The position numbers were made by a program, and so were the translations under genes. From positions 20,775-84,774 of the IMG/VR virus record IMGVR_UViG_3300047552_002060: a DNA stretch of 64,000 nt, one strand, 5' to 3'. Under the pieces are notes generated by a model. It was not told where the DNA came from. It worked only from the letters and a program-made list of their open reading frames with translations, and did no database searches. Position 1 is the stretch's first letter. Each line of letters starts with the position of its first letter. Origin of the DNA: a virus. Of the stretch, positions 14,864 through 62,604 are shown in pieces.

Positions 14864-14940
14864 TTGACTTGGTTCTATCTTAAGAATAGAGAGAGCAGCT
14901 AAAGAGCTGCTAAGTTCTGGTTCAAGTCCAGAGAGTCGAG
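14864..14940 (+). tRNA. tRNA-like sequence, degenerate (AAA at anticodon position)
   Basis: Ends pair as TTGACTT/GAGTCGA with two wobble pairs. The T arm TCTGG TTCAAGT CCAGA is perfect. The anticodon-like arm is GCAGC TAAAGA GCTGC (six-base loop). U8 and the D-loop GG are missing, and a CTAT/ATAG hairpin stands in the D-arm place. It is probably a decayed tRNA or a tRNA mimic. Confidence 0.45.
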
Positions 14941-15007
14941 TCAGTTCAATCACAGACGAATGGGTGACACAGAGTTGCACCCTACGGTGGGTCTTAATGG
15001 AGCATAT

Positions 15008-43450: not shown

Positions 43451-43972
43451 TTAATAACCAGGGCCTTCGTCACGACCGTTGCCATTAATCTTTATTCTAT
43501 CCCAATATTCCCTCTCCTCTTGCTCATTTTTAAATCTTTGATTGATAGGTTTCTGAGCTTCGGCAAGCCAATTATTGATTCCGTTGCCCCAATTGGATTC
43601 AGCCTTATTCATTTCTTCTTGTGTAGAGAAACCATTAGCTTGAGCATACATATTTTGTGCAGCCCTATGCATCTCTTCATTGGTCGGCTGACGAGGAGGT
43701 GGTCGGGTGCCTAAAATACCAGATTTTTGAAGTTGATTAGCAAGACGTTGGGCGTGCTGCTGCTCAGCGAGCTCTTTAGCTTTCACAAGAACTTGTTCAC
43801 GCGTGAGCTTTGCTGTTGGCTTTGCTGGTACCTTTAGACCAGCAGCAATCTCATTCATCATGCGCTCTACTGGAGAAAGAGACTTGTGATCTTCTTCTGC
43901 CAGAGCTTTCTTCAAAACCTTGAATCGATAGATTAGATCGCCCAACTCTTTTTCAATCTCTGCCTTATTCAT
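43451..43972 (-). CDS. helical structural or assembly protein, 173 aa
   Basis: Charged and helical with a Pro-rich spot (GTRPPPRQPTNEEM) and a Gly/Asn/Asp-rich tail. Overlaps the large acidic protein gene by 8 nt. No family recognised. Confidence 0.6.
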   Translation of the reverse strand: MNKAEIEKELGDLIYRFKVLKKALAEEDHKSLSPVERMMNEIAAGLKVPAKPTAKLTREQVLVKAKELAEQQHAQRLANQLQKSGILGTRPPPRQPTNEEMHRAAQNMYAQANGFSTQEEMNKAESNWGNGINNWLAEAQKPINQRFKNEQEEREYWDRIKINGNGRDEGPGY

Positions 43973-46252: not shown

Positions 46253-47923
46253 TTATTCTTCTCCACTTTCATTTTCAGAAATATATCGAATATTACGTTT
46301 GAGAGCTGGTTGTGCGGGCTTCGGTGGCATAGCTGCTCCCTGCTTGCGAACAATTGGCGCTCTTGCTGCTACTACTCGCTTCAGTCTGTCTTGAAGATCA
46401 GGTGTATGGGATGCAGCTATCTGCTCTAGCGATTTCTTAGGAGAAGAGGCAACCGGAGCGGGCAATGATGGTTTCTTAACACCAGACATCTTCTCTTGAG
46501 CGATCTGACTGGGCGGTGTGAGACTTCCCTGAATAGATTGAATCTCCTCTGGAGAATATGTCTTGACCGGACTTGCTTTTTCAGCTGACATCTTAGTATT
46601 GAAGCTTTTGGCCTTAGCTCGTAATTCACTTGGAATCTCGTCTTGGGCCTTCAATGCTGCTTGCATTAAGCCGTGCATCTTACGGTTCAAGTGCGTTGTA
46701 AATTTAGCTCCACTTGGATGATCGTGGTTATAGTCATTAACAGCCTGAAACAGTGCGTGCACACCTGCCTCGTGTAATAGACCGTGATCAATTTCTCCAC
46801 CGTTCGCTTTTTCAGTAAGACCAAGCTTAGAAAGAACGTGACGAGCGGCCTTACCTATTTGTGGATGGTATTTCGCCACAAATCGATCAACTAGTTTTTT
46901 CTTCGCGGGATCTTTGAGGGCCGAATGATCGCCGAGAACGGTATTGACATCAGCACGAACCTCTGGATCTAAAGTGTCTAAATCTGAGACATTCGAAAAC
47001 TTTTTAGCCTTCTTGTCATAGTTTTGCATGTACTGCTGAATAAATTCCTGATTGCCAGAAGCGAATGCTGAACCTTTATCTTGCTGAATGCCAGAAGGTC
47101 CACTATCTTCATCATCTCTAGAACCGCCGACATGCTGAATACCTTCTTCTATTGACATTGCTCCAGGTTGTACACCACCGCCAGCAATATGACGAATCTT
47201 TTCGTCTTTCGCTTGACTATATCTCTCCATGGTGTCTGCCCTTTTCTTATGTGCCTCATGATGAGTCAATAAAGCATTAGCTAGATGGTCTGGATTCTGC
47301 TTGTGCCAGTCTTCATGAAATTTCTGTTCCATTTCCATCTGGGTGATTGGATCAGCATTTTGAAACTCAGGAGATTCGGCAAGGGCGCGTTGAGCTTTTT
47401 GTTTATCAGCATAAGAAGTATTGCGAGCCTCTATCAGGCGACCTTGGTGGTGCTTATGCGGGTTTATATGAGCTTGAGCCTCTAGCTTAGACTTATCACG
47501 AGCTCGCTGTTCCCATGGACGAGTGTACTCACGCATGGCAGCAAGTTCTTCTCTAGTGGGTTGCAGATCGCTTGGGATCTCTGACTCAACAGGGGATTTA
47601 CTTTGAGCTGGTTTCACACCCGGTTTCACAATTGTGGGTTTGACAGCTATTTTTTGAGGTTGCTCAACAGGCCTCTCAATCTCTTCTTCTTCAGGTTCTG
47701 CTTGATTTGGTTCAGATTCTTGAGCGGGATCCTCATTACCACCGTCATTCTCTTTGAGCCACTTAGATGCTTCATCGTCTCCTTCTTCACCGAAATCTGA
47801 ATCAGAGTCCAATCCTTCTGCGTCTTGATCTTCATCTATATCAGAATAGTCAGGAGTCTCGTCGGATAGACGTCGACGTGCCTTTAGCAAAAACTCTTTA
47901 ATAGTGTCTAGCGTAGTTGACAT
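46253..47923 (-). CDS. long low-complexity virion-type protein with sigma-like segment, 556 aa
   Basis: Residues 1-110 are acidic and disordered; the middle is charged and helical. Residues about 343-425 (LVDRFVAKYHPQIGKAARHV, then GLLHEAGVHALFQAVNDY, AKFTTHLNRKMHGLMQAAL) fit the helices of sigma-70 region 2. The C-terminus is Pro/Lys-rich. It lies between the connector and another long protein, so it may be packaged in or attached to the head. The sigma link is pattern-based. Confidence 0.65.
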   Translation of the reverse strand: MSTTLDTIKEFLLKARRRLSDETPDYSDIDEDQDAEGLDSDSDFGEEGDDEASKWLKENDGGNEDPAQESEPNQAEPEEEEIERPVEQPQKIAVKPTIVKPGVKPAQSKSPVESEIPSDLQPTREELAAMREYTRPWEQRARDKSKLEAQAHINPHKHHQGRLIEARNTSYADKQKAQRALAESPEFQNADPITQMEMEQKFHEDWHKQNPDHLANALLTHHEAHKKRADTMERYSQAKDEKIRHIAGGGVQPGAMSIEEGIQHVGGSRDDEDSGPSGIQQDKGSAFASGNQEFIQQYMQNYDKKAKKFSNVSDLDTLDPEVRADVNTVLGDHSALKDPAKKKLVDRFVAKYHPQIGKAARHVLSKLGLTEKANGGEIDHGLLHEAGVHALFQAVNDYNHDHPSGAKFTTHLNRKMHGLMQAALKAQDEIPSELRAKAKSFNTKMSAEKASPVKTYSPEEIQSIQGSLTPPSQIAQEKMSGVKKPSLPAPVASSPKKSLEQIAASHTPDLQDRLKRVVAARAPIVRKQGAAMPPKPAQPALKRNIRYISENESGEE

Positions 47924-54852: not shown

Positions 54853-55271
54853 TTATCGCTTAAGAGAATACCATCCAGATGCTCTATTTCATGCTGGAGC
54901 ATCTGTGCTCTCAATCCACTAGTATTCAGAGTGAGTTTATTCCCATCTACATCCTGATATGAAATTGTTATCTTTGAGAAGCGCATCACGTCTTCGTAGA
55001 TACCAGGAAATGAGAGGCATCCTTCTATCATCATTTTCTTTGTACCTCCGATTCGTTCTATCTTAGGATTGATATAGATCTCTCGCTCATTGCCAACGTC
55101 AGCGACAATAATGCGAAGAGGAATACCGATTTGGATAGCAGAAAGACCAACACCTTTATGTTGGTACATCACTGCAAACATGTTGTGGATAGTAATGGAA
55201 AGATTAGAATCAGTAAAGTCGACTTCTGATGATTTTTGGTGGAGTACAGGATCAGGATATAAGCGGAGCAT
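54843..55271 (-). CDS. def: peptide deformylase
   Basis: All three metallo-deformylase motifs: GVGLSAIQ (40-47), EGCLS with Cys85 as metal ligand, and QHEIEH (126-131, HExxH). It removes the formyl group from new proteins. At 142 residues it is slightly short, as in other phage deformylases. The gene starts inside the end of the composite nuclease gene and ends in the tRNA. Confidence 0.92.
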   Translation of the reverse strand: MLRLYPDPVLHQKSSEVDFTDSNLSITIHNMFAVMYQHKGVGLSAIQIGIPLRIIVADVGNEREIYINPKIERIGGTKKMMIEGCLSFPGIYEDVMRFSKITISYQDVDGNKLTLNTSGLRAQMLQHEIEHLDGILLSDKAP

Positions 55272-56658
55272 CGAGTAATTGACTCTTAAGATAATTTAGT
55301 ACTTCTTGAGAAGTACCAGAGAATTGACCATATTTTTTACTGCGAGAATCTATAGCAATTATTCTACGAGTTAAAGATTCAGTCCACTCACCACCTCGAC
55401 CGATTAGACGTTCCTTTAGAGTTTCTTCTTTCTCTATGATAAAAAGAGGAATTAGGTTAAACTCATGTGAATATCTCTTTATAAAAGTTGAAATCTTAAA
55501 TGTTGGATCATAGAGGGAAATTGCAGTATTGCGAAGCAATGTCAGTCGCTCTTCGTCATTTTTAGTGTCATCATAACTAATATAATTGATCTTATCCTTA
55601 AGTTGCTCACATATCCAACTCTTCCCCGCGCCGGGGACTCCGCAGACTAAGTAAACAGTCGGTAGTTCTTTACTTAAATCTAACCCAAGGTCAATAAGAC
55701 TTTCTTTATATAAGATTTTCCATTTTAAGTTAGGATACTCGGTCTTAAATAAAGCATATTTATCACTTTGGTCCTCAGATAGAAACCCTTTTATCTCTAT
55801 ATACTCATCTGTGGCTGGAAGATAAAAGTCAGCTACATAGCTCTTATTATTGGATAATTGAAATGCCTTTGGTTCATAGAAAAAATCTATTTTGTTATTC
55901 TTTAAATACTCTGCGTACTTCTTTTCCCAAGAAGAGCGCATAACCACGAATCCGTCATTAGGAGTTAGACATGTCATCCGTTTACCATTACCGTGGCTAC
56001 TTCTAGTGCCACTTAAAATCTGATCTATGGCCGTTTGAGACATCTTTAATTTCGTTTCTTCTGAATGATGTTGGCCAATTCTAGCCTCGTTACAATCACG
56101 AAGAGTTATATTGGCGGTTGTAAGAATCTTCTGAATTGAACTAGAAGTCGCTCCAAGTTCTTCTTTTAAGACTCTTACAGCTTTCCCAGCCGTATATTGC
56201 TCAATTATATAGTCTTCTTTGCCTACTATATTAGGATTTGGTCTACGGTGTTCTTTGCCTTGTATAGTTCGATTGTGACGCGCTTCTTTTAAAGAACGAA
56301 TAGGTATTTGAAATTTCTCCAAAGCCTTTTTAACAGCAGATCTATTCTTTAATCCAGCTTCATCAGCAATATTTCTTGTAGAAGCACCTTCTAAAATGTA
56401 ACGTTTATATAACCACTCTTTATCTAATAAAAAAGTTTTAGCTTTTTCCACATTTGGAACATAACCTTTTTGCTTAGCGGTAAGTGTTTTTGCTTCTCCT
56501 GCCGATCGTTGGGGAAAACCGTAACGTTTTATATATTTAGATACTATTGCTTTTGTAACTCCAATCTCTTTAGCAATGGTGCTCATACTTTTTTGTTGTG
56601 TTACGTATTCGTTTGCTAACCACTCTTTATCTAATAGTTTTTCATTTGGTGTGTACAT
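55252..56658 (-). CDS. composite protein: HTH repeats, NUMOD-like, PD-(D/E)XK nuclease and P-loop kinase-like domain
   Basis: I use the ATG at 56658. Two to three helix-turn-helix segments (about 10-50, 80-120, 145-185), each beginning LLDKEWL or similar, are followed by HHSEETKLKMSQTAI (NUMOD3-like). A nuclease core follows with ADFYLP (Asp277) and EIKG (Glu288, Lys290), spaced as in PD-(D/E)XK homing nucleases. From 336 a P-loop GVPGAGKS (340-347) opens a kinase-like domain. It looks like a homing endonuclease fused to or inserted in a nucleotide- or polynucleotide-kinase gene. Confidence 0.75.
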   Translation of the reverse strand: MYTPNEKLLDKEWLANEYVTQQKSMSTIAKEIGVTKAIVSKYIKRYGFPQRSAGEAKTLTAKQKGYVPNVEKAKTFLLDKEWLYKRYILEGASTRNIADEAGLKNRSAVKKALEKFQIPIRSLKEARHNRTIQGKEHRRPNPNIVGKEDYIIEQYTAGKAVRVLKEELGATSSSIQKILTTANITLRDCNEARIGQHHSEETKLKMSQTAIDQILSGTRSSHGNGKRMTCLTPNDGFVVMRSSWEKKYAEYLKNNKIDFFYEPKAFQLSNNKSYVADFYLPATDEYIEIKGFLSEDQSDKYALFKTEYPNLKWKILYKESLIDLGLDLSKELPTVYLVCGVPGAGKSWICEQLKDKINYISYDDTKNDEERLTLLRNTAISLYDPTFKISTFIKRYSHEFNLIPLFIIEKEETLKERLIGRGGEWTESLTRRIIAIDSRSKKYGQFSGTSQEVLNYLKSQLLDAPLIS

Positions 56659-56711
56659 ACAAATATTATACCAAAGAATTTGTATGGAACTAATAAATGA
56701 AAGATAATAAA

Positions 56712-56740
56712 GAAGGCTAGGTTTTAATAACCTAGCCTTC
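56712..56740 (-). terminator. intrinsic terminator after the major capsid gene
   Basis: GAAGGCTAGGTT (56712-56723) pairs with AACCTAGCCTTC (56729-56740), a perfect 12-bp stem with a 5-nt loop, followed on the minus strand by TTTATTATC. The gap here is under 130 nt. Confidence 0.75.
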
Positions 56741-56767
56741 AATAACTACTTGATTTTATTAATTAAT

Positions 56768-58213
56768 TTACTTGCCTACGTTCTTGAAGAAGCAATTAAA
56801 TCTTGGTGTATACACAAAGAGGGCGCCATAAAGGACTACGGCGAACTCGAGCGCGGTTGTAACAATCGCGAAGTTGATCTTGCTTAGAGGAGCTAGCTGC
56901 TTGAACCGCATGTTCTCTGCGCTCATGTCGAGTAGGAATGCCTCGCCGAGACCAGGGAGCTTCGCACCTGCGCAGATGTAGTTACCTGCGCCGACGTTCG
57001 CCCAGTTACCTGCGAACTTCTCGGTACCAGCCGCACCACCTGGTGCGCTAACATAAAGCTTCCAGCTCTTCACACCAGCAGGAACGCTGCTGATCGCGCA
57101 CTGAATGTTCTGACCAAGGGTTAGAGTAACAGCCGCTGAAGCGACAGGCGCTGACTCACCGGAGTCATTAACCGCAGTGACCTTGACCTGGTAAGTACCA
57201 GCCGCGAAGGTTGAACCTGAACCAGTCGCAGTAGCAGTTACCGCAAAAGTTGAAGCAGGAGCTGCTGTGCCGCTTGCCTGCGCGCGCACGCCAGTGCGAG
57301 GACGTAGGAAGAGGTTAGGCTTGAGATCGATCGCGCCAGCAGTGGTCTGAATCTTCGAGACGTCGTAGCCAACAGTCTGTGAAGCAAGACCGGGAGCTGA
57401 ACGGAACTGAGGATAGAACTGCCTAACGAACGCTGAGATCGCTGCGGGCTCTGCGTGTAGCTCGCTGGGTGAACCGAAGTTCTCGAGAGCAATAACTGCT
57501 AGTGCCTCGACATCATCCTGGGCCATAACCGCGCCAGCAAGATCCTGACCGATTGAGCTGGTCGTACCATACCCGTTAAAGTCGCCAGAGATCATCTGCG
57601 CGTCGGTGTCGCCCTTTAGGAGCTGCTTTAGGAGACCGGACATCGCGATTGAGCTTGAGGGAAGATCAGCATCAGCACCAGTCATAGCACCAGTCGTCTG
57701 GTTCTGATAGTGTGCATGACCCCAGTATAGCTCGCGCTCAACATTCTTTAGAAGGTGCATAGTACCCTCTTTCGCCTGCTGCGCAACGATATCACCGACA
57801 GTGACACGAACAAGTGTCATCTGATGTGATACGCGTCGACGGGTGCCGAAGAATACGATCTTCTGCCCGTCACGTACGTAGGTCGAATCTTCCTCTTGGG
57901 GCGCACCACCCTCACCGATATAAGGAGCTGAGTCGCTGCCGTACGAAATTAGACGATTGTACTGCTCGAACAAGTTGTAAGCCTTATCAACGCTAACCGC
58001 GGGCCACATCTTGAGGTTCTTCATGTCAAACGTAACGCTCTTTAGAGTCGTCTCGAGTGATTCAGCCTGGAGGACGCCACCATAGGTGAGGTCGGTAGGC
58101 TTACCAGCACCGCCGTAACCTGCAGTGATGGCCTTGTTAAGTGCCTCGACTTCAGCCGCTGTGACGAGACCGGACTCGAGACCCTGTAATACTTGGTTAA
58201 TTGTGTCGTTCAT
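56768..58213 (-). CDS. major capsid protein
   Basis: A 481-residue protein directly downstream of the scaffold gene, strongly terminated and with the regular codon use of a highly expressed gene. It contains a long N-terminal arm, an RRRVSHQMTLVRV segment, and an inserted Ig/fibronectin-like domain at about 325-395 (AGTYQVKVTAVNDSGESAPVAS) that should stick out from the capsid. The HK97-type fold is inferred from position, length and layout. Its N-terminal AITAGYGGAGKPTD is echoed in the polyprotein at 59542. Confidence 0.8.
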   Translation of the reverse strand: MNDTINQVLQGLESGLVTAAEVEALNKAITAGYGGAGKPTDLTYGGVLQAESLETTLKSVTFDMKNLKMWPAVSVDKAYNLFEQYNRLISYGSDSAPYIGEGGAPQEEDSTYVRDGQKIVFFGTRRRVSHQMTLVRVTVGDIVAQQAKEGTMHLLKNVERELYWGHAHYQNQTTGAMTGADADLPSSSIAMSGLLKQLLKGDTDAQMISGDFNGYGTTSSIGQDLAGAVMAQDDVEALAVIALENFGSPSELHAEPAAISAFVRQFYPQFRSAPGLASQTVGYDVSKIQTTAGAIDLKPNLFLRPRTGVRAQASGTAAPASTFAVTATATGSGSTFAAGTYQVKVTAVNDSGESAPVASAAVTLTLGQNIQCAISSVPAGVKSWKLYVSAPGGAAGTEKFAGNWANVGAGNYICAGAKLPGLGEAFLLDMSAENMRFKQLAPLSKINFAIVTTALEFAVVLYGALFVYTPRFNCFFKNVGK

Positions 58214-58231
58214 TTTTCTTATCTCCTTAAA

Positions 58232-58966
58232 TTACTTAATGTTGTATTTCGAAACAATCTTTTCCAGATCGTGTCCCATCTCAGCCATCGCAATGTCATT
58301 GCTGTCAACGCGACCGCCAGACTTCTTTAAATCAAACAGCTTTGTTGCTACTTCTGACTTCGATAACGGCTCACCTGCATCTGTAGACTTCAAGAGAGGT
58401 GCTACATCTTTGTAAGAGACACCCTTTGCGGCGACTGGAGCGTCCGCTAGTTTGGTCACTGTCTCTAGGATTGAGGCTAGTTTGCCCTCAAGAGCAGTCA
58501 TCTTAGAATCAACATAGCTCTTCATGAGAGTCTCTGCTTCCTCAACGGACTTCTTCATCTCACCCTTGTGCATGTCAAGAAGTTTCTTGGCAATATCCTT
58601 CTCCTTCTCTTCGTGCTTGGGGTCGTCCTTGTGAGGCTCGTCCTCATCCTTCTTATCTTCCTTCTTATCTTCAGCCTTGCCCATGTCAGCAGCAGCGTTA
58701 ACGCCTTCGCCCTTGCCCATGTCAGCCTTGGAATTGACACCTTCTGCCTTCTCGGTCTCCTCTTCCTTATCTTCCTCGTCCTTCTCTTCCTCATCCTCGG
58801 CCTTTTCTGCTAGCTTGCCATTAGTAGGCTTACCAGCAAGCTCATCTGCTCCAGGACCCTTGAGGTCCACTTCAGCAGCTGAGAAACGAGACTTCTTGAG
58901 CTCTTCGAGCTCTAGTAGGGTCTCATCGATTAGGTCAGTGAGGCTCTTTTTGAATTCCTCTTTCAT
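58232..58966 (-). CDS. capsid scaffold protein, 244 aa
   Basis: Very acidic and lysine-rich, helical, with an N-terminal coiled coil and a short repeat (GVN(S/A)xADMGK) at about 75-95. It lies immediately upstream of the capsid gene, the classical scaffold position. Ribosome-binding site GGAG. Confidence 0.72.
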   Translation of the reverse strand: MKEEFKKSLTDLIDETLLELEELKKSRFSAAEVDLKGPGADELAGKPTNGKLAEKAEDEEEKDEEDKEEETEKAEGVNSKADMGKGEGVNAAADMGKAEDKKEDKKDEDEPHKDDPKHEEKEKDIAKKLLDMHKGEMKKSVEEAETLMKSYVDSKMTALEGKLASILETVTKLADAPVAAKGVSYKDVAPLLKSTDAGEPLSKSEVATKLFDLKKSGGRVDSNDIAMAEMGHDLEKIVSKYNIK

Positions 58967-58993
58967 CGTTATGCTCCTTAAAGGGTTAACTAA

Positions 58994-59401
58994 TTACTGA
59001 CCCATACCAAGAAGGTCGGGGTTACCACGTAGAGTTGCAGTGAATGTTGCATCGCTGTTCTCAAGAACAATGTCATTGCAGAAACCAGCAAGAACCTGTA
59101 GAACCTTCGCTGCAGTAACTGAATCAAGAACGTCAGCGATGGTATCCGCCGCAGTGCTTGAGCTCTTTAGCTTGAGCTGACCAGGAGCAACAACGCCAAT
59201 GCCTAGGAAAGGCGAAGACGCAGGTGAAACGCCGCCCATGGGGAGGTCGATTGAAGCAGCAACATATGAAACAGTGAGATCGTTTGAGCCGTTGTCAATA
59301 ACAACAGCCGCACCCGAGTTTGAAAGAACAGTGAGACCTAGTTGAGTACAGTTGCGAGCAACTTTGGCCATGATCTGTGCGACAGCAGTAGTAGATGCCA
59401 T
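58994..59401 (-). CDS. small capsid/decoration protein, 135 aa
   Basis: AAGGAG before the ATG at 59401 sets the start; an upstream in-frame ATG adds only an unlikely leader. Ala/Ser/Val-rich beta protein (SNSGAAVVIDNGSNDLTVSYVA), first gene of the capsid operon. A head decoration or minor capsid role is likely from position. Confidence 0.62.
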   Translation of the reverse strand: MASTTAVAQIMAKVARNCTQLGLTVLSNSGAAVVIDNGSNDLTVSYVAASIDLPMGGVSPASSPFLGIGVVAPGQLKLKSSSTAADTIADVLDSVTAAKVLQVLAGFCNDIVLENSDATFTATLRGNPDLLGMGQ

Positions 59402-59541
59402 GTGAAATTTCTCCTTAAAAATTACGTTAGTTAAAAACTTAACTAAAAATGATGATATCACATGCTAATAGCTAAACCTATATTATTGCGAATCGGTACG
59501 CGCTGCTTCAGTAGACAACGTGCTAGAATGTCTATTAAGAT

Positions 59542-61650
59542 ATGAAATCACTTAAAATCGACATGTGCGCAGGAAGCCAGCTTCGTGATACTCAAGGCGA
59601 AACCTTAGATATTGAAGGTGCCGATATCAGCGAACTTGAAGCCGGAAGAGGTCGTCTGAATGATAACCATGGAAAAGGGTTCTTTAACACTTTAGGCAAA
59701 ATCACGGCTGCCAAGAAAATCTTCAAGGCAGAAGACTGCGAAAATGATAGGCATCGTTATTACTGGGAAAAGGTAAAAAGTCCCTATATTTACGTTGCCG
59801 GTGAACTATTCAATGACGAAGATCACCCAAATAGCAAGGCCGCCGCTGCCATTCTAAGGAATGTCTATAAGACCGATTGTCCGCTTAAAGTTAAGAGTTC
59901 TGTAGAGGGCGGAGTAGTCAGTCGTGGACTTCGAGATCCATCGCATTTAGCTAGAACTAAGATTCACTCTGTCGCATTAACTTTCGTTCCTGCGAATCAA
60001 GCAACTCTTGTTGAGCCGCTTAATCTTGACAAATCATCCTATGATCACGATGCGGATATGGTTCTTATTAAGTCAGTGCTACATCTCGCTGAGACTAATG
60101 TTCCATCTTTTCGTCATATTGTTCGCAATGCGTCAGCAGAAAAGATCGAAGTAAACATCAATAAGATTATGGCCTCCTTAGGCAAGAAGGTGGCGCTTGA
60201 GCTGAAACAAGAGTTAATCAAAGACTCTCTTAGAAACAAGATCTCTGAGAATGTTCATCTCATCAATGAGTTGGTTAAAAGTGCTGTAGAAGAAGAGATG
60301 GATAAGAAGGAACTAGATCCAGGTCTCGGCTACACTTTCTCACACGAACATCACGATCTGGGCGATGGAGAAATGCTCACGCACATTCGAGCTCATCATC
60401 CGAATGGAACAGTAGCCGGTGAGGCTCTATTTAATCATAGACCCAATAAGATGCTTGAGGCAGAAGGTGTGAAAGTTCACCCTGAGCATCAGCGACTAGG
60501 GTTGGCTTCGGCAATCTACAATCATGCGCAAAAAGTAACAAATAAGCCAATTATGCCTAGTACTGATCAAACAGCGGCCGGTAAAGCTTTCTGGTCAGGC
60601 ACGAAGGGGAATTTTGGAAATCCTGCTTTAAATAAGGCCGTTCCTGGACCAGATGAAGATTACTATAATGTTAAACAAGGATATACGGGCAAGGATGCGA
60701 GAGCGGCTCAAATAAACGCTGTTAAGCAGATGGTGAATCGACATGGAAAATTTCACAAACCATTTAAAACAATGGTAAATGAAAAAACTGGAAAACCAGA
60801 ACTACACATGATGGTTCATCGAGGGATTGATGGTCCTGTCACGGATCCAACACCTACCAGTAAAAATAAATTTAAGGTTACTCCAACCCATATCGAGCAA
60901 CCTGGTCACGCAGTACACGCCATGTCATATGGTGCGGCACATGAATACACTGGTCGCGAATTAGATCCACCGGAAACCGCGGAAGGTAAATGGATTGGCG
61001 AAACTTGGGTTCCTGCTAGAAAACCAGATCCAGAAAGAGCACACCCCGAATCCGGTATTTATTCTATGTGGGTTCCTGTAAGTCAAATCGAGAGCACTGG
61101 TGACTATATGGCCCGACGATTTAAAAACCCCAATATGCCGCTTCCAGAAGGTGAAAACGATCGTAGAGCTCTTGCTAATAACAGTCACGCATTTGAGCAA
61201 GGACATATAACTATTAAGCCCGGACGCTACGCGCGAGTCACAAAGACAGAAATGCAGGCAATGCACAATAGGTGGCACAAAAACTTTAAAAAGCGCAACC
61301 CTGACGAGTGGCTTGTGCATCATGAAAAATATCCACCACTAAGTCCTCAATTTAAACATATCTACCCGGATGACCCGCAAGAAAAATTGTCATATACAAA
61401 AGGTAAGACTATGGAAAAGGCACTTACGGCAGGTTATGGTGGTGCCGGTGCTCCAACAGCAATGTCAGGTGGTTCAGTTCTTCAGAGCGAATCACAAGAA
61501 CTCGGTCCTAAGAGCTTTAAATACATCACTTGCGACGACTGCGGTAATGAACAGATCTACGGTAAATTTCAAGTAAAATGTAGAAACTGTAACAAAACTT
61601 TTTCTATGAAGAAGCTTGAGAAGTTTTTTCAAATAAATAAAAAGGGATAA
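59542..61650 (+). CDS. prohead protease polyprotein with GNAT-like, possible ART-like and zinc-ribbon domains, 702 aa
   Basis: Residues 1-165 resemble a phage prohead protease: DNHGKGF with His43, VKSSVEGG with Ser119/120, and SVALTFVPANQATLVEP. Residues about 265-355 look like a GNAT acetyltransferase (VHPEHQRLGLASAIYNHA at 312-329). Residues about 400-580 (MVHRGIDG, HAMSYGAAHEYT, ITIKPGRYARV) loosely recall ADP-ribosyltransferase folds. Residues 627-650 copy the start of the capsid protein (ALTAGYGGAGAPT). The end is a Cys4 zinc ribbon (CDDCG, CRNC). Cleavage could release the extra domains into the capsid. Confidence 0.7.
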   Translation: MKSLKIDMCAGSQLRDTQGETLDIEGADISELEAGRGRLNDNHGKGFFNTLGKITAAKKIFKAEDCENDRHRYYWEKVKSPYIYVAGELFNDEDHPNSKAAAAILRNVYKTDCPLKVKSSVEGGVVSRGLRDPSHLARTKIHSVALTFVPANQATLVEPLNLDKSSYDHDADMVLIKSVLHLAETNVPSFRHIVRNASAEKIEVNINKIMASLGKKVALELKQELIKDSLRNKISENVHLINELVKSAVEEEMDKKELDPGLGYTFSHEHHDLGDGEMLTHIRAHHPNGTVAGEALFNHRPNKMLEAEGVKVHPEHQRLGLASAIYNHAQKVTNKPIMPSTDQTAAGKAFWSGTKGNFGNPALNKAVPGPDEDYYNVKQGYTGKDARAAQINAVKQMVNRHGKFHKPFKTMVNEKTGKPELHMMVHRGIDGPVTDPTPTSKNKFKVTPTHIEQPGHAVHAMSYGAAHEYTGRELDPPETAEGKWIGETWVPARKPDPERAHPESGIYSMWVPVSQIESTGDYMARRFKNPNMPLPEGENDRRALANNSHAFEQGHITIKPGRYARVTKTEMQAMHNRWHKNFKKRNPDEWLVHHEKYPPLSPQFKHIYPDDPQEKLSYTKGKTMEKALTAGYGGAGAPTAMSGGSVLQSESQELGPKSFKYITCDDCGNEQIYGKFQVKCRNCNKTFSMKKLEKFFQINKKG

Positions 61651-61651
61651 A

Positions 61652-62200
61652 ATGGACGAACTGATCAAAATCGCAAGCAATGGTCAATGGACCCTAGAAA
61701 AAGCGATTCCACCGACAATTAAGAAGCCAGGAGAGGTGGCTCGATCACTGGCAAAACCAGCGACAGCAGCTGCGCCAGCCAAATCACCAGCAGCGACACC
61801 GGCTAAGAAGCTAAAAGAAACGACTGTCAAAGATAGCGACAAAACGCGGGCATTAACTCAAGCAGCTTTAGCCGCCACGCCAAGTGACATCACGAAACCG
61901 ATGAAACGAAAAGAAGCCCCTACTGGGCAGCACCCTAAAGAACTGATGCCACCTCAGGAGATGACGAGAGAGACAGAATCAGGTGCACCTATTATGCGAG
62001 AGCGCCAAGGAACCTTCCACGGAGAAGGTGCTAGAACACGCGGAAAGGTTGTTCCTAAACGAGTTGGATACTTAGATAAAAAAACAGGCCAAATGATGGG
62101 TCATACTATACATCAGCAAGAGACCCATCATTGGCGCTGGGATCACAACAATAAGAAGTGGGAGCACGTTAAAACAACTTTTGGCTCCACCTCTGACTAG
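61652..62200 (+). CDS. hypothetical basic protein, 182 aa
   Basis: Follows the polyprotein after 1 nt. Ala/Pro/Lys-rich, disordered first 80 residues, then a His/Trp-rich end (HTIHQQETHHWRWDHNNKKWEH). May be packaged with the polyprotein. Converges with the next gene with a 4-nt overlap. Confidence 0.6.
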   Translation: MDELIKIASNGQWTLEKAIPPTIKKPGEVARSLAKPATAAAPAKSPAATPAKKLKETTVKDSDKTRALTQAALAATPSDITKPMKRKEAPTGQHPKELMPPQEMTRETESGAPIMRERQGTFHGEGARTRGKVVPKRVGYLDKKTGQMMGHTIHQQETHHWRWDHNNKKWEHVKTTFGSTSD

Positions 62201-62604
62201 CTGCCGATTTCGTAATCACCATCAGACTCACTTGACGGTTCAAAGATCGATTCGCCACTAAACTTATTTTTAAGTGTGGCGAATTCTTCTTTATTACGAA
62301 TCTTATTCATTGCTTCTTTCTCGATCTTCTTCACTGTTTCTACAGAGAGACAGTTGAGTGCTGCCACCTCCACATCTGATAAGGTTTGTTCAGAAGCAAA
62401 TTCGTCAATGTATTTAAAAAAACAATAATTGGCCATTTGACTATTTACAGACCATGGACATCCGGGGCACTTGTTCTCCTCTTCTTCTGTGAGTTCTTTT
62501 CCAGCTGTTCTGATAGCTCTAAGCCGCATTACAGCTAGATCACAATACTTAGTAGGCATCTCTTTTAGTTGTCTGGGGCAGCGTGGGTCCATGGGATTCT
62601 TCAT
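62197..62604 (-). CDS. sigma-70 region-4-like protein with Cys cluster, 135 aa
   Basis: The N-terminal half carries four Cys residues (CPRQ, YCDL, CPGCPW), a probable zinc site. The C-terminal half has LSDVEVAALNCLSVETVKKIEKEAMNKIRN (about 78-107), the helix-turn-helix pattern of sigma region 4 (L...E.A..L..S...V..IE..A..K.R). It could recognise a -35 element or bind RNA polymerase. First seen beside structural genes, so a late role is possible. Confidence 0.6.
   Translation of the reverse strand: MKNPMDPRCPRQLKEMPTKYCDLAVMRLRAIRTAGKELTEEEENKCPGCPWSVNSQMANYCFFKYIDEFASEQTLSDVEVAALNCLSVETVKKIEKEAMNKIRNKEEFATLKNKFSGESIFEPSSESDGDYEIGS

Follow-up and report, generated by a model that had tools for sequence, protein, structure and literature searches.

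A prohead protease with a capsid-arm copy and putative exchangeable cargo domains in an uncultured tailed phage

Enzymes packaged in phage heads, prohead proteases that cut themselves and multidomain polyvalent proteins are all already known. In coliphage T4, Alt and the internal proteins IPI-III are packaged into the head, trimmed by the prohead protease and injected, and short capsid targeting sequences, cut by gp21 after L/I-x-E, carry internal proteins as well as artificial fusions into the head and the host (PMC9026906). The proteases gp245 of SPN3US and gp175 of phiKZ lose a C-terminal propeptide by self-cleavage (PMC10052503; PMC9026906). Polyvalent proteins (Iyer et al. 2017) combine effector enzymes, such as ADP-ribosyltransferases (ARTs), GNATs, lysozymes and kinases, with peptidases and were proposed to be injected; in that survey, assemblin-like peptidases were reported at C termini only (PMC5512222). 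Here, we analyze a 702-residue protein encoded by an open reading frame (ORF) at 59542-61650 (+ strand) of a 64-kb stretch of DNA, hereafter the window, which forms part of an 84,774-base IMG/VR virus record, an uncultured tailed-phage contig. The chain runs from a prohead protease through a GNAT acetyltransferase domain, a second conserved domain and a copy of the N-terminal arm of the major capsid protein to a zinc ribbon. We interpret it, with a probability of about 0.6, as a prohead protease that processes itself and also carries exchangeable cargo, its packaging, cutting and delivery being predicted from genes and models.

Herelleviridae (SPO1/A511-like) proteases of phrog_1028, such as A511 gp84, likewise have a copy of the capsid N-arm, cut site included, behind the protease; 613 phage records contain matches to A511 gp84. 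However, gp84 (264 residues) carries neither inserted cargo nor a zinc ribbon and is only remotely similar to the window protease. With T4 gp21, the window protease shares its fold and, by prediction, a short hydrophobic-x-charged cut motif; T4 cargo, in contrast, consists of separate proteins with their own targeting peptides, cut after Glu, whereas the cargo described here is fused and its predicted cut follows Lys. No enzyme cargo has been reported for SPN3US gp245 or phiKZ gp175, and gp245 cuts after A-x-E. The likeness to polyvalent proteins lies in the joining of a GNAT and a second domain in one chain beside the capsid genes, with SLT, HEAT and kinase modules in relatives. Unlike in those proteins, the window protease is N-terminal rather than C-terminal, and the chain is closed by the capsid-arm copy. 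The putative prohead protease of Myxococcus phage Mx1 (WNM70322, 1239 residues) is that of a cargo-bearing relative (40.5% over 165 residues). It combines a capsid-arm-like segment with a long extension, where a PI3K-like kinase stretch is located, but its arm copy precedes the extension and the zinc-ribbon end was not found in it. In the open-access literature text, we found no capsid protease described that is N-terminal and combines exchangeable cargo with a copy of the capsid arm.

Domains of the 702-residue protein

The reading frame was confirmed, and that it encodes a protease together with a capsid-arm copy is close to certain. In the protease half, residues 83-156 match the PHROG head maturation protease phrog_1028 (E 7.8e-7), and the AlphaFold model aligns with T4 gp21 (5jbl) at Z 7.9 over 122 residues and 2.9 A, a middling score that is backed by the phrog_1028 match. 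H43 and S120 are invariant across 30 aligned rows and are likely the catalytic pair. Toward the other end of the chain, residues 622-660 are 54% identical to the product of the major capsid gene (E 4e-7), and this arm copy is present family-wide, in all complete group members. Within the CxxC-x12-CxxC pattern that follows, all four cysteines (C664, C667, C680 and C683) are invariant in the first seven relatives. An earlier note on this DNA had described a protein that starts as a prohead protease and continues with an acetyltransferase-like domain, an R-S-E or ART-like region, a copy of the capsid N-terminal segment and a zinc ribbon; the protease, the capsid copy and the zinc ribbon are all borne out by these results.

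The acetyltransferase-like domain has held up as well. PF00583 matches this domain alone with E 3.1e-5 (24.7 bits, cut-off 20.7), AlphaFold assigns pLDDT values of 84-95 across residues 261-340, and among the 50 best structural neighbours of the model almost every one is a GNAT (Z reaching 9.9 over about 88 residues at 2.6 A). The acetyl-CoA loop, Q/R-x-x-G-x-G/A, reads QRLGLA in the window protein and QRRGLG in the relative L003. Judged by profile and model, the GNAT fold of residues 262-355 is real, with acetyl transfer itself predicted. A chimeric assembly of the ORF was considered and rejected as unlikely, because L003, an independent contig, repeats the order of protease, GNAT, arm and zinc ribbon in a single frame. 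A composition shift that would signal recent gain was sought across the cargo of the ORF, and none was found (GC content 0.42-0.47). GNATs related to that of the window also occur in two adjacent genes of a cultured phage, Tunturiibacter phage Tunturi_5 (L013, record 142374-147269), one of which is annotated as an ADP-ribosyltransferase.

For the ART-like region, the earlier claim stands in part: a conserved domain is present, about 41% identical to that of the relative L089 in alignment, whereas its assignment as an ART is not established. Searches of Pfam, PHROG and PDB sequence families gave zero matches, two AlphaFold predictions lent the ART reading no support, the model of the domain alone being unusable (mean pLDDT 36.8), and in the two known copies the R and S positions are conserved while the third-motif Glu is out of register, a His being constant there. 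The structure prediction that had been suggested for the C-terminal regions thus gave a GNAT fold for one of them and no fold for the other. By eye, the motif order MVHRGI, AVHxxSxxxAHEY, SxWVPxSQ and GHITIKPG/QHISIKPG resembles the R, S-T-S and E-x-E strands of ARTs, and GNAT and ART domains are adjacent in known polyvalent proteins (PMC5512222). Three scans for further homologues yielded L089 alone in viral contigs and zero in genome contigs, and a comparison with part of the Tunturi_5 protein that is annotated as an ADP-ribosyltransferase gave no match. A true ADP-ribosyltransferase, serving as a T4 Alt-like effector, would be compatible with a cargo-carrying protease; we consider it possible, at clearly less than even odds.

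Candidate cleavage sites and the exchange of cargo

In the GenBank record of Listeria phage A511, the mature capsid protein starts after residue 23, at EDALK^SFTTGYG (annotated mat_peptide; ^ marks the cut). The A511 protease contains a copy of this site, FMK^SWTTGHGTTPDTQVNAGALRRESL, and a comparison of the A511 capsid protein with the protease PHROG gives E 2.7e-15 across the cut-site segment. Copies of the capsid cut site are therefore an old, family-wide trait and not a peculiarity of the window. Among proteases of the window family, the arm-copy site has a hydrophobic residue at P3 in 64/64 cases, K at P1 in 64/64 and A at P1' in 63/64 (M in the remaining one), with LxKA at the equivalent place in 26/26 capsid proteins. 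Because the K-A-L-x-A-G core belonged to the pattern by which the arm site was located, the hydrophobic P3 is the sole free observation here. From these alignments, a cut at K626 is highly probable.

Counts of phi-x-K-[SAG] were compared between observed and shuffled sequences. The motif is about fivefold enriched in the scaffold (334 versus 65) and the protease tail (149 versus 29) and not in the protease core (56 versus 45); the cargo has 72 versus 54, the arm and zinc ribbon are depleted (9 versus 22), and other ORFs have 757 versus 499. Were the motif the target of the protease, abundance would be expected in the scaffold and scarcity in the protease core and the arm. Among the genes of the window, strong enrichment is confined to the 702-residue protein (6 versus 1.7), the scaffold (7 versus 1.5) and ORF 43451-43972 (5 versus 0.3). 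The sites of the 702-residue protein are K62 in the core, K164, K177, K246 (LVK^S), K365 and K626, and the five that follow the core all fall outside assigned domains: K164 and K177 come after the protease, K246 before the GNAT and K365 within a low-confidence linker of the model (341-382). Moreover, 22/24 members with SLT cargo have a site in the stretch before the cargo (shuffled mean 8.8), and 5/24 have one inside the domain (12.5). This placement makes cuts flanking the cargo fairly likely.

In three scans, viral contigs yielded 85 distinct protease ORFs. Complete members of the main group invariably begin with the protease and have the arm copy and the zinc ribbon downstream; in the distant members Mx1 and L011, the arm/zinc-ribbon profile is without a match, and both have an arm-like segment. 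What lies between protease and arm differs widely. About 20 relatives have nothing there, while about 34 have an SLT transglycosylase-type domain, the commonest cargo. Further relatives contain a basic, proline-rich middle lacking any recognisable enzyme (11 or 12), HEAT repeats (six), a GNAT (two), an ART-like domain (two), an HExxH motif (one) or, in the distant Mx1 and L011, a PI3K-like kinase stretch. Additionally, L154 and L016 carry beyond the zinc ribbon an extra domain that is also found in the next ORF of the window (61652-62200). PF01464 was matched by 6/23 of the SLT-type cargos scanned (best 9.5e-7) and a profile search with this cargo against PDB sequences gave no match, the assignment resting on Pfam and the motif ESSGG. 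These proteins turn hydrophobic directly behind the predicted cut, the best 18-residue Kyte-Doolittle mean having a median of 1.04, and the SLT cargo is most readily understood as an enzyme of entry.

On a tree of the protease domain, many inner branches of which are weak, cargo type needs at least 20 changes (minimum possible 8; shuffled mean 37). Cargo is therefore inherited, yet often swapped, gained or lost. The closest relatives of the window protein carry no middle cargo; for example, its residues 3-249 and 622-697 align with L014 at 77% identity each, leaving a clean difference of 372 residues. In a second pair, the filled L089 and the empty L116 are 83% identical over residues 1-230 and again 71% identical after an ART-like cassette of about 265 residues. 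The empty L116 has a single SLAEPLEK-ASKKQL, and the filled L089 has SLAELLEK-ARPYPT at the start of the cassette and TAEPLEK-ASKKQL at its end. In such filled and empty pairs, the inserted cassette is flanked by a site at either end.

Some cargo modules also occur outside the fusion. The ORF at 61652-62200 and three relatives start with M-x-x-LIKIAxNGQWxLEK^A, followed by a variable middle and then the HHW domain; this ORF probably encodes a second internal protein, for which packaging and a cut are predicted. A HEAT-linked domain that is fused in L062 stands as an ORF of its own in L125 (30.5% over 344 residues, E 6e-40), where KSNGQWNLIK^S stands upstream of it, and two more ORFs near proteases have GQWSLxK^S. 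Two cargo modules thus exist as free proteins bearing a GQWxLxK^[AS] peptide. The peptide lies near the start of otherwise unrelated protease-adjacent proteins, namely that of ORF 61652-62200 (+) and those of L104, L095, L096, L125, L080 and L063. By analogy with T4, it looks like a capsid targeting sequence that ends at the predicted cut.

Proposed packaging of cargo and competing explanations

In the interpretation we favor, the protease would be taken into the prohead, probably via its tail or its arm copy, and, once activated there, would cut the capsid protein and the scaffold after phi-x-K. Self-cuts at K164/K177, K246, K365 and K626 would free the GNAT, the second domain and an arm/zinc-ribbon piece inside the head, and the freed cargo would stay with the DNA and enter the next host, in the manner of T4 Alt and the internal proteins. 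Between phage lineages, cargo would be swapped as cassettes bounded by cut sites, and two routes into the head may exist, fusion to the protease or the GQW peptide. The proposal of the earlier note, a packaged protease that cuts itself and delivers enzymes, is partly supported by an arm site in every relative tested, by the interdomain sites, by the exchangeable cargo and by the free modules. We consider the presence of cargo inside virions fairly likely and its action in the host at entry an even chance. More tentative, at slightly under even odds, is the notion of a modular virion-loading platform, in which a phi-x-lysine protease would serve as the polyprotein backbone for host-acting cassettes that are fused, freed and injected, with the GQWxLxK^ peptide as an alternative.

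Several points weigh against a carrier role. With about 20 relatives carrying none, cargo is not needed for head assembly, and the virion content of this protease group is predicted here from genes and models. The proposed phi-x-K specificity draws on the annotation of a single cut, in a distant phage, together with motif enrichment; the sequences behind the motif counts are related and non-independent, ratios outweighing z-scores, and other ORFs also carry a 1.5-fold excess. Lysine-rich linkers are common among phage proteins. Furthermore, prohead propeptides often exit the head (PMC10052503), and small cargo could be lost in this way.

The fused domains might instead act late in the infected cell and outside the head, the fusion coupling their expression to assembly and cytoplasmic self-cleavage releasing them. 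The protein is made in the producing cell, and a GNAT could modify host proteins at any stage; however, a prohead protease is expected to work inside the prohead, the commonest cargo, an SLT domain whose predicted cut precedes a hydrophobic stretch, is better suited to entry than to work in the cytoplasm, and the free forms of two modules bear a peptide resembling a capsid targeting sequence. We regard late action as unlikely on this evidence. A purely structural role is rated a little lower: the middles would be spacers or parts of the head interior that adjust the size of the prohead, the activation of the protease or the organisation of the DNA, with no role in the host. This would suit the 11 or 12 relatives with basic, proline-rich middles that lack a recognisable enzyme, and HEAT repeats could be structural too, but the GNAT and SLT folds are those of enzymes and keep conserved motifs (QRLGLA and ESSGG), and about 20 relatives manage without any middle. 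Lowest of the three in our estimate is an arm copy and zinc ribbon that stay uncut and merely anchor the protease to the capsid lattice, phi-x-K then reflecting flexible, lysine-rich linkers. Arm copies do keep the entire capsid-arm sequence, beyond the cut site, as an anchor would; yet the annotated A511 cut coincides exactly with the conserved K, and the motif is enriched in the scaffold and the protease tail and not in the protease core.

If the protease is indeed a cargo carrier, phages would load their heads with enzymes by fusing these to the maturation protease, an arrangement that already includes their release, and whatever sits between protease and capsid-arm copy would be a candidate early-infection effector. 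In the SPO1-like proteases, which belong to a large phage family, the capsid-arm copy would most simply serve self-cleavage or docking. With the predicted cut after lysine, ordinary trypsin proteomics cannot separate it from digestion, an ambiguity that may explain why phi-x-K sites escaped notice.

Neighbouring genes and other features of the window

The protease gene adjoins the scaffold and major capsid genes (Table 1), and an equal gene set is found in L004 and L010. In the window, L014, L016 and L017, the protease gene (59542-62200 in the window) is opposed to the scaffold and capsid genes (56768-59461), whereas they are co-directional in L004 and L010; the opposed orientation is a clade-wide local inversion. 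Within the capsid protein (56768-58213, -), residues ~308-420 seem to form an inserted domain that matches the profiles phrog_8040 and phrog_19622 and is possibly an Ig-like surface domain. The ORF that adjoins the capsid gene (55252-56742, -, 496 residues) contains helix-turn-helix repeats, a phage endonuclease-like part and a P-loop kinase-like part, and looks like a homing-type insertion.

Table 1. Coordinates in the window of the protease domains, candidate cuts and adjacent genes (^ marks a predicted cut)
Feature	Position	Strand	Evidence or remark
Prohead protease domain, residues 1-160	59542..60021	+	phrog_1028 match, T4 gp21 structural match, conservation
Helical protease tail, residues 161-255, candidate cuts K164^S, K177^S, K246^S	60022..60306	+	Motif enrichment; helices in model
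GNAT acetyltransferase fold, residues 262-355, QRLGLA acetyl-CoA loop	60325..60606	+	PF00583; structural neighbours
Candidate cut K365, ALNK^AVPG; ALNK^A shared with window capsid protein	60634..60636	+	Between GNAT and second domain
Conserved second domain, ART-like region of the earlier note, residues 370-605	60649..61356	+	Homologue in L089
Candidate cut K626, MEK^ALTAGYGG, before arm	61417..61419	+	Equivalent to A511 capsid cut after K23
Capsid N-arm copy, residues 627-653	61420..61500	+	Similarity to major capsid protein; all complete group members; A511 protease equivalent
Zinc ribbon, residues 660-700, CxxC-x12-CxxC	61519..61641	+	Invariant Cys; weak zinc-ribbon profile matches
Next ORF, 182 residues, N-terminal MDELIKIASNGQWTLEK^A, C-terminal HHW domain	61652..62200	+	Domain fused to protease in L154, L016
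Major capsid protein, template for arm copy, candidate cut ALNK27^A	56768..58213	-	phrog_752 E 3.6e-52
Probable scaffold protein, phi-x-K-[SA]-rich	58232..58966	-	Adjoins major capsid protein; 7 sites versus 1.5 expected
155-residue head gene product between protease and scaffold	58994..59461	-	Gene order matches L004, L010

Distant from the protease, the 173-residue ORF at 43451-43972 (-), with its five phi-x-K-[SA] sites against 0.3 expected, is a candidate for another core or scaffold protein that the protease would cut. A low-complexity ORF of 556 residues (46253-47923, -) has an N-terminal FLLK^A and a by-eye likeness to sigma-70 region 2, with zero matches in Pfam. A 135-residue ORF (62197-62604, -) gives a weak match to sigma-70 region 4 (E 0.0015, below the cut-off). 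Finally, a tRNA-like gene lies at 14868-14942 (+), for which ARAGORN reads a four-base anticodon (aaag).
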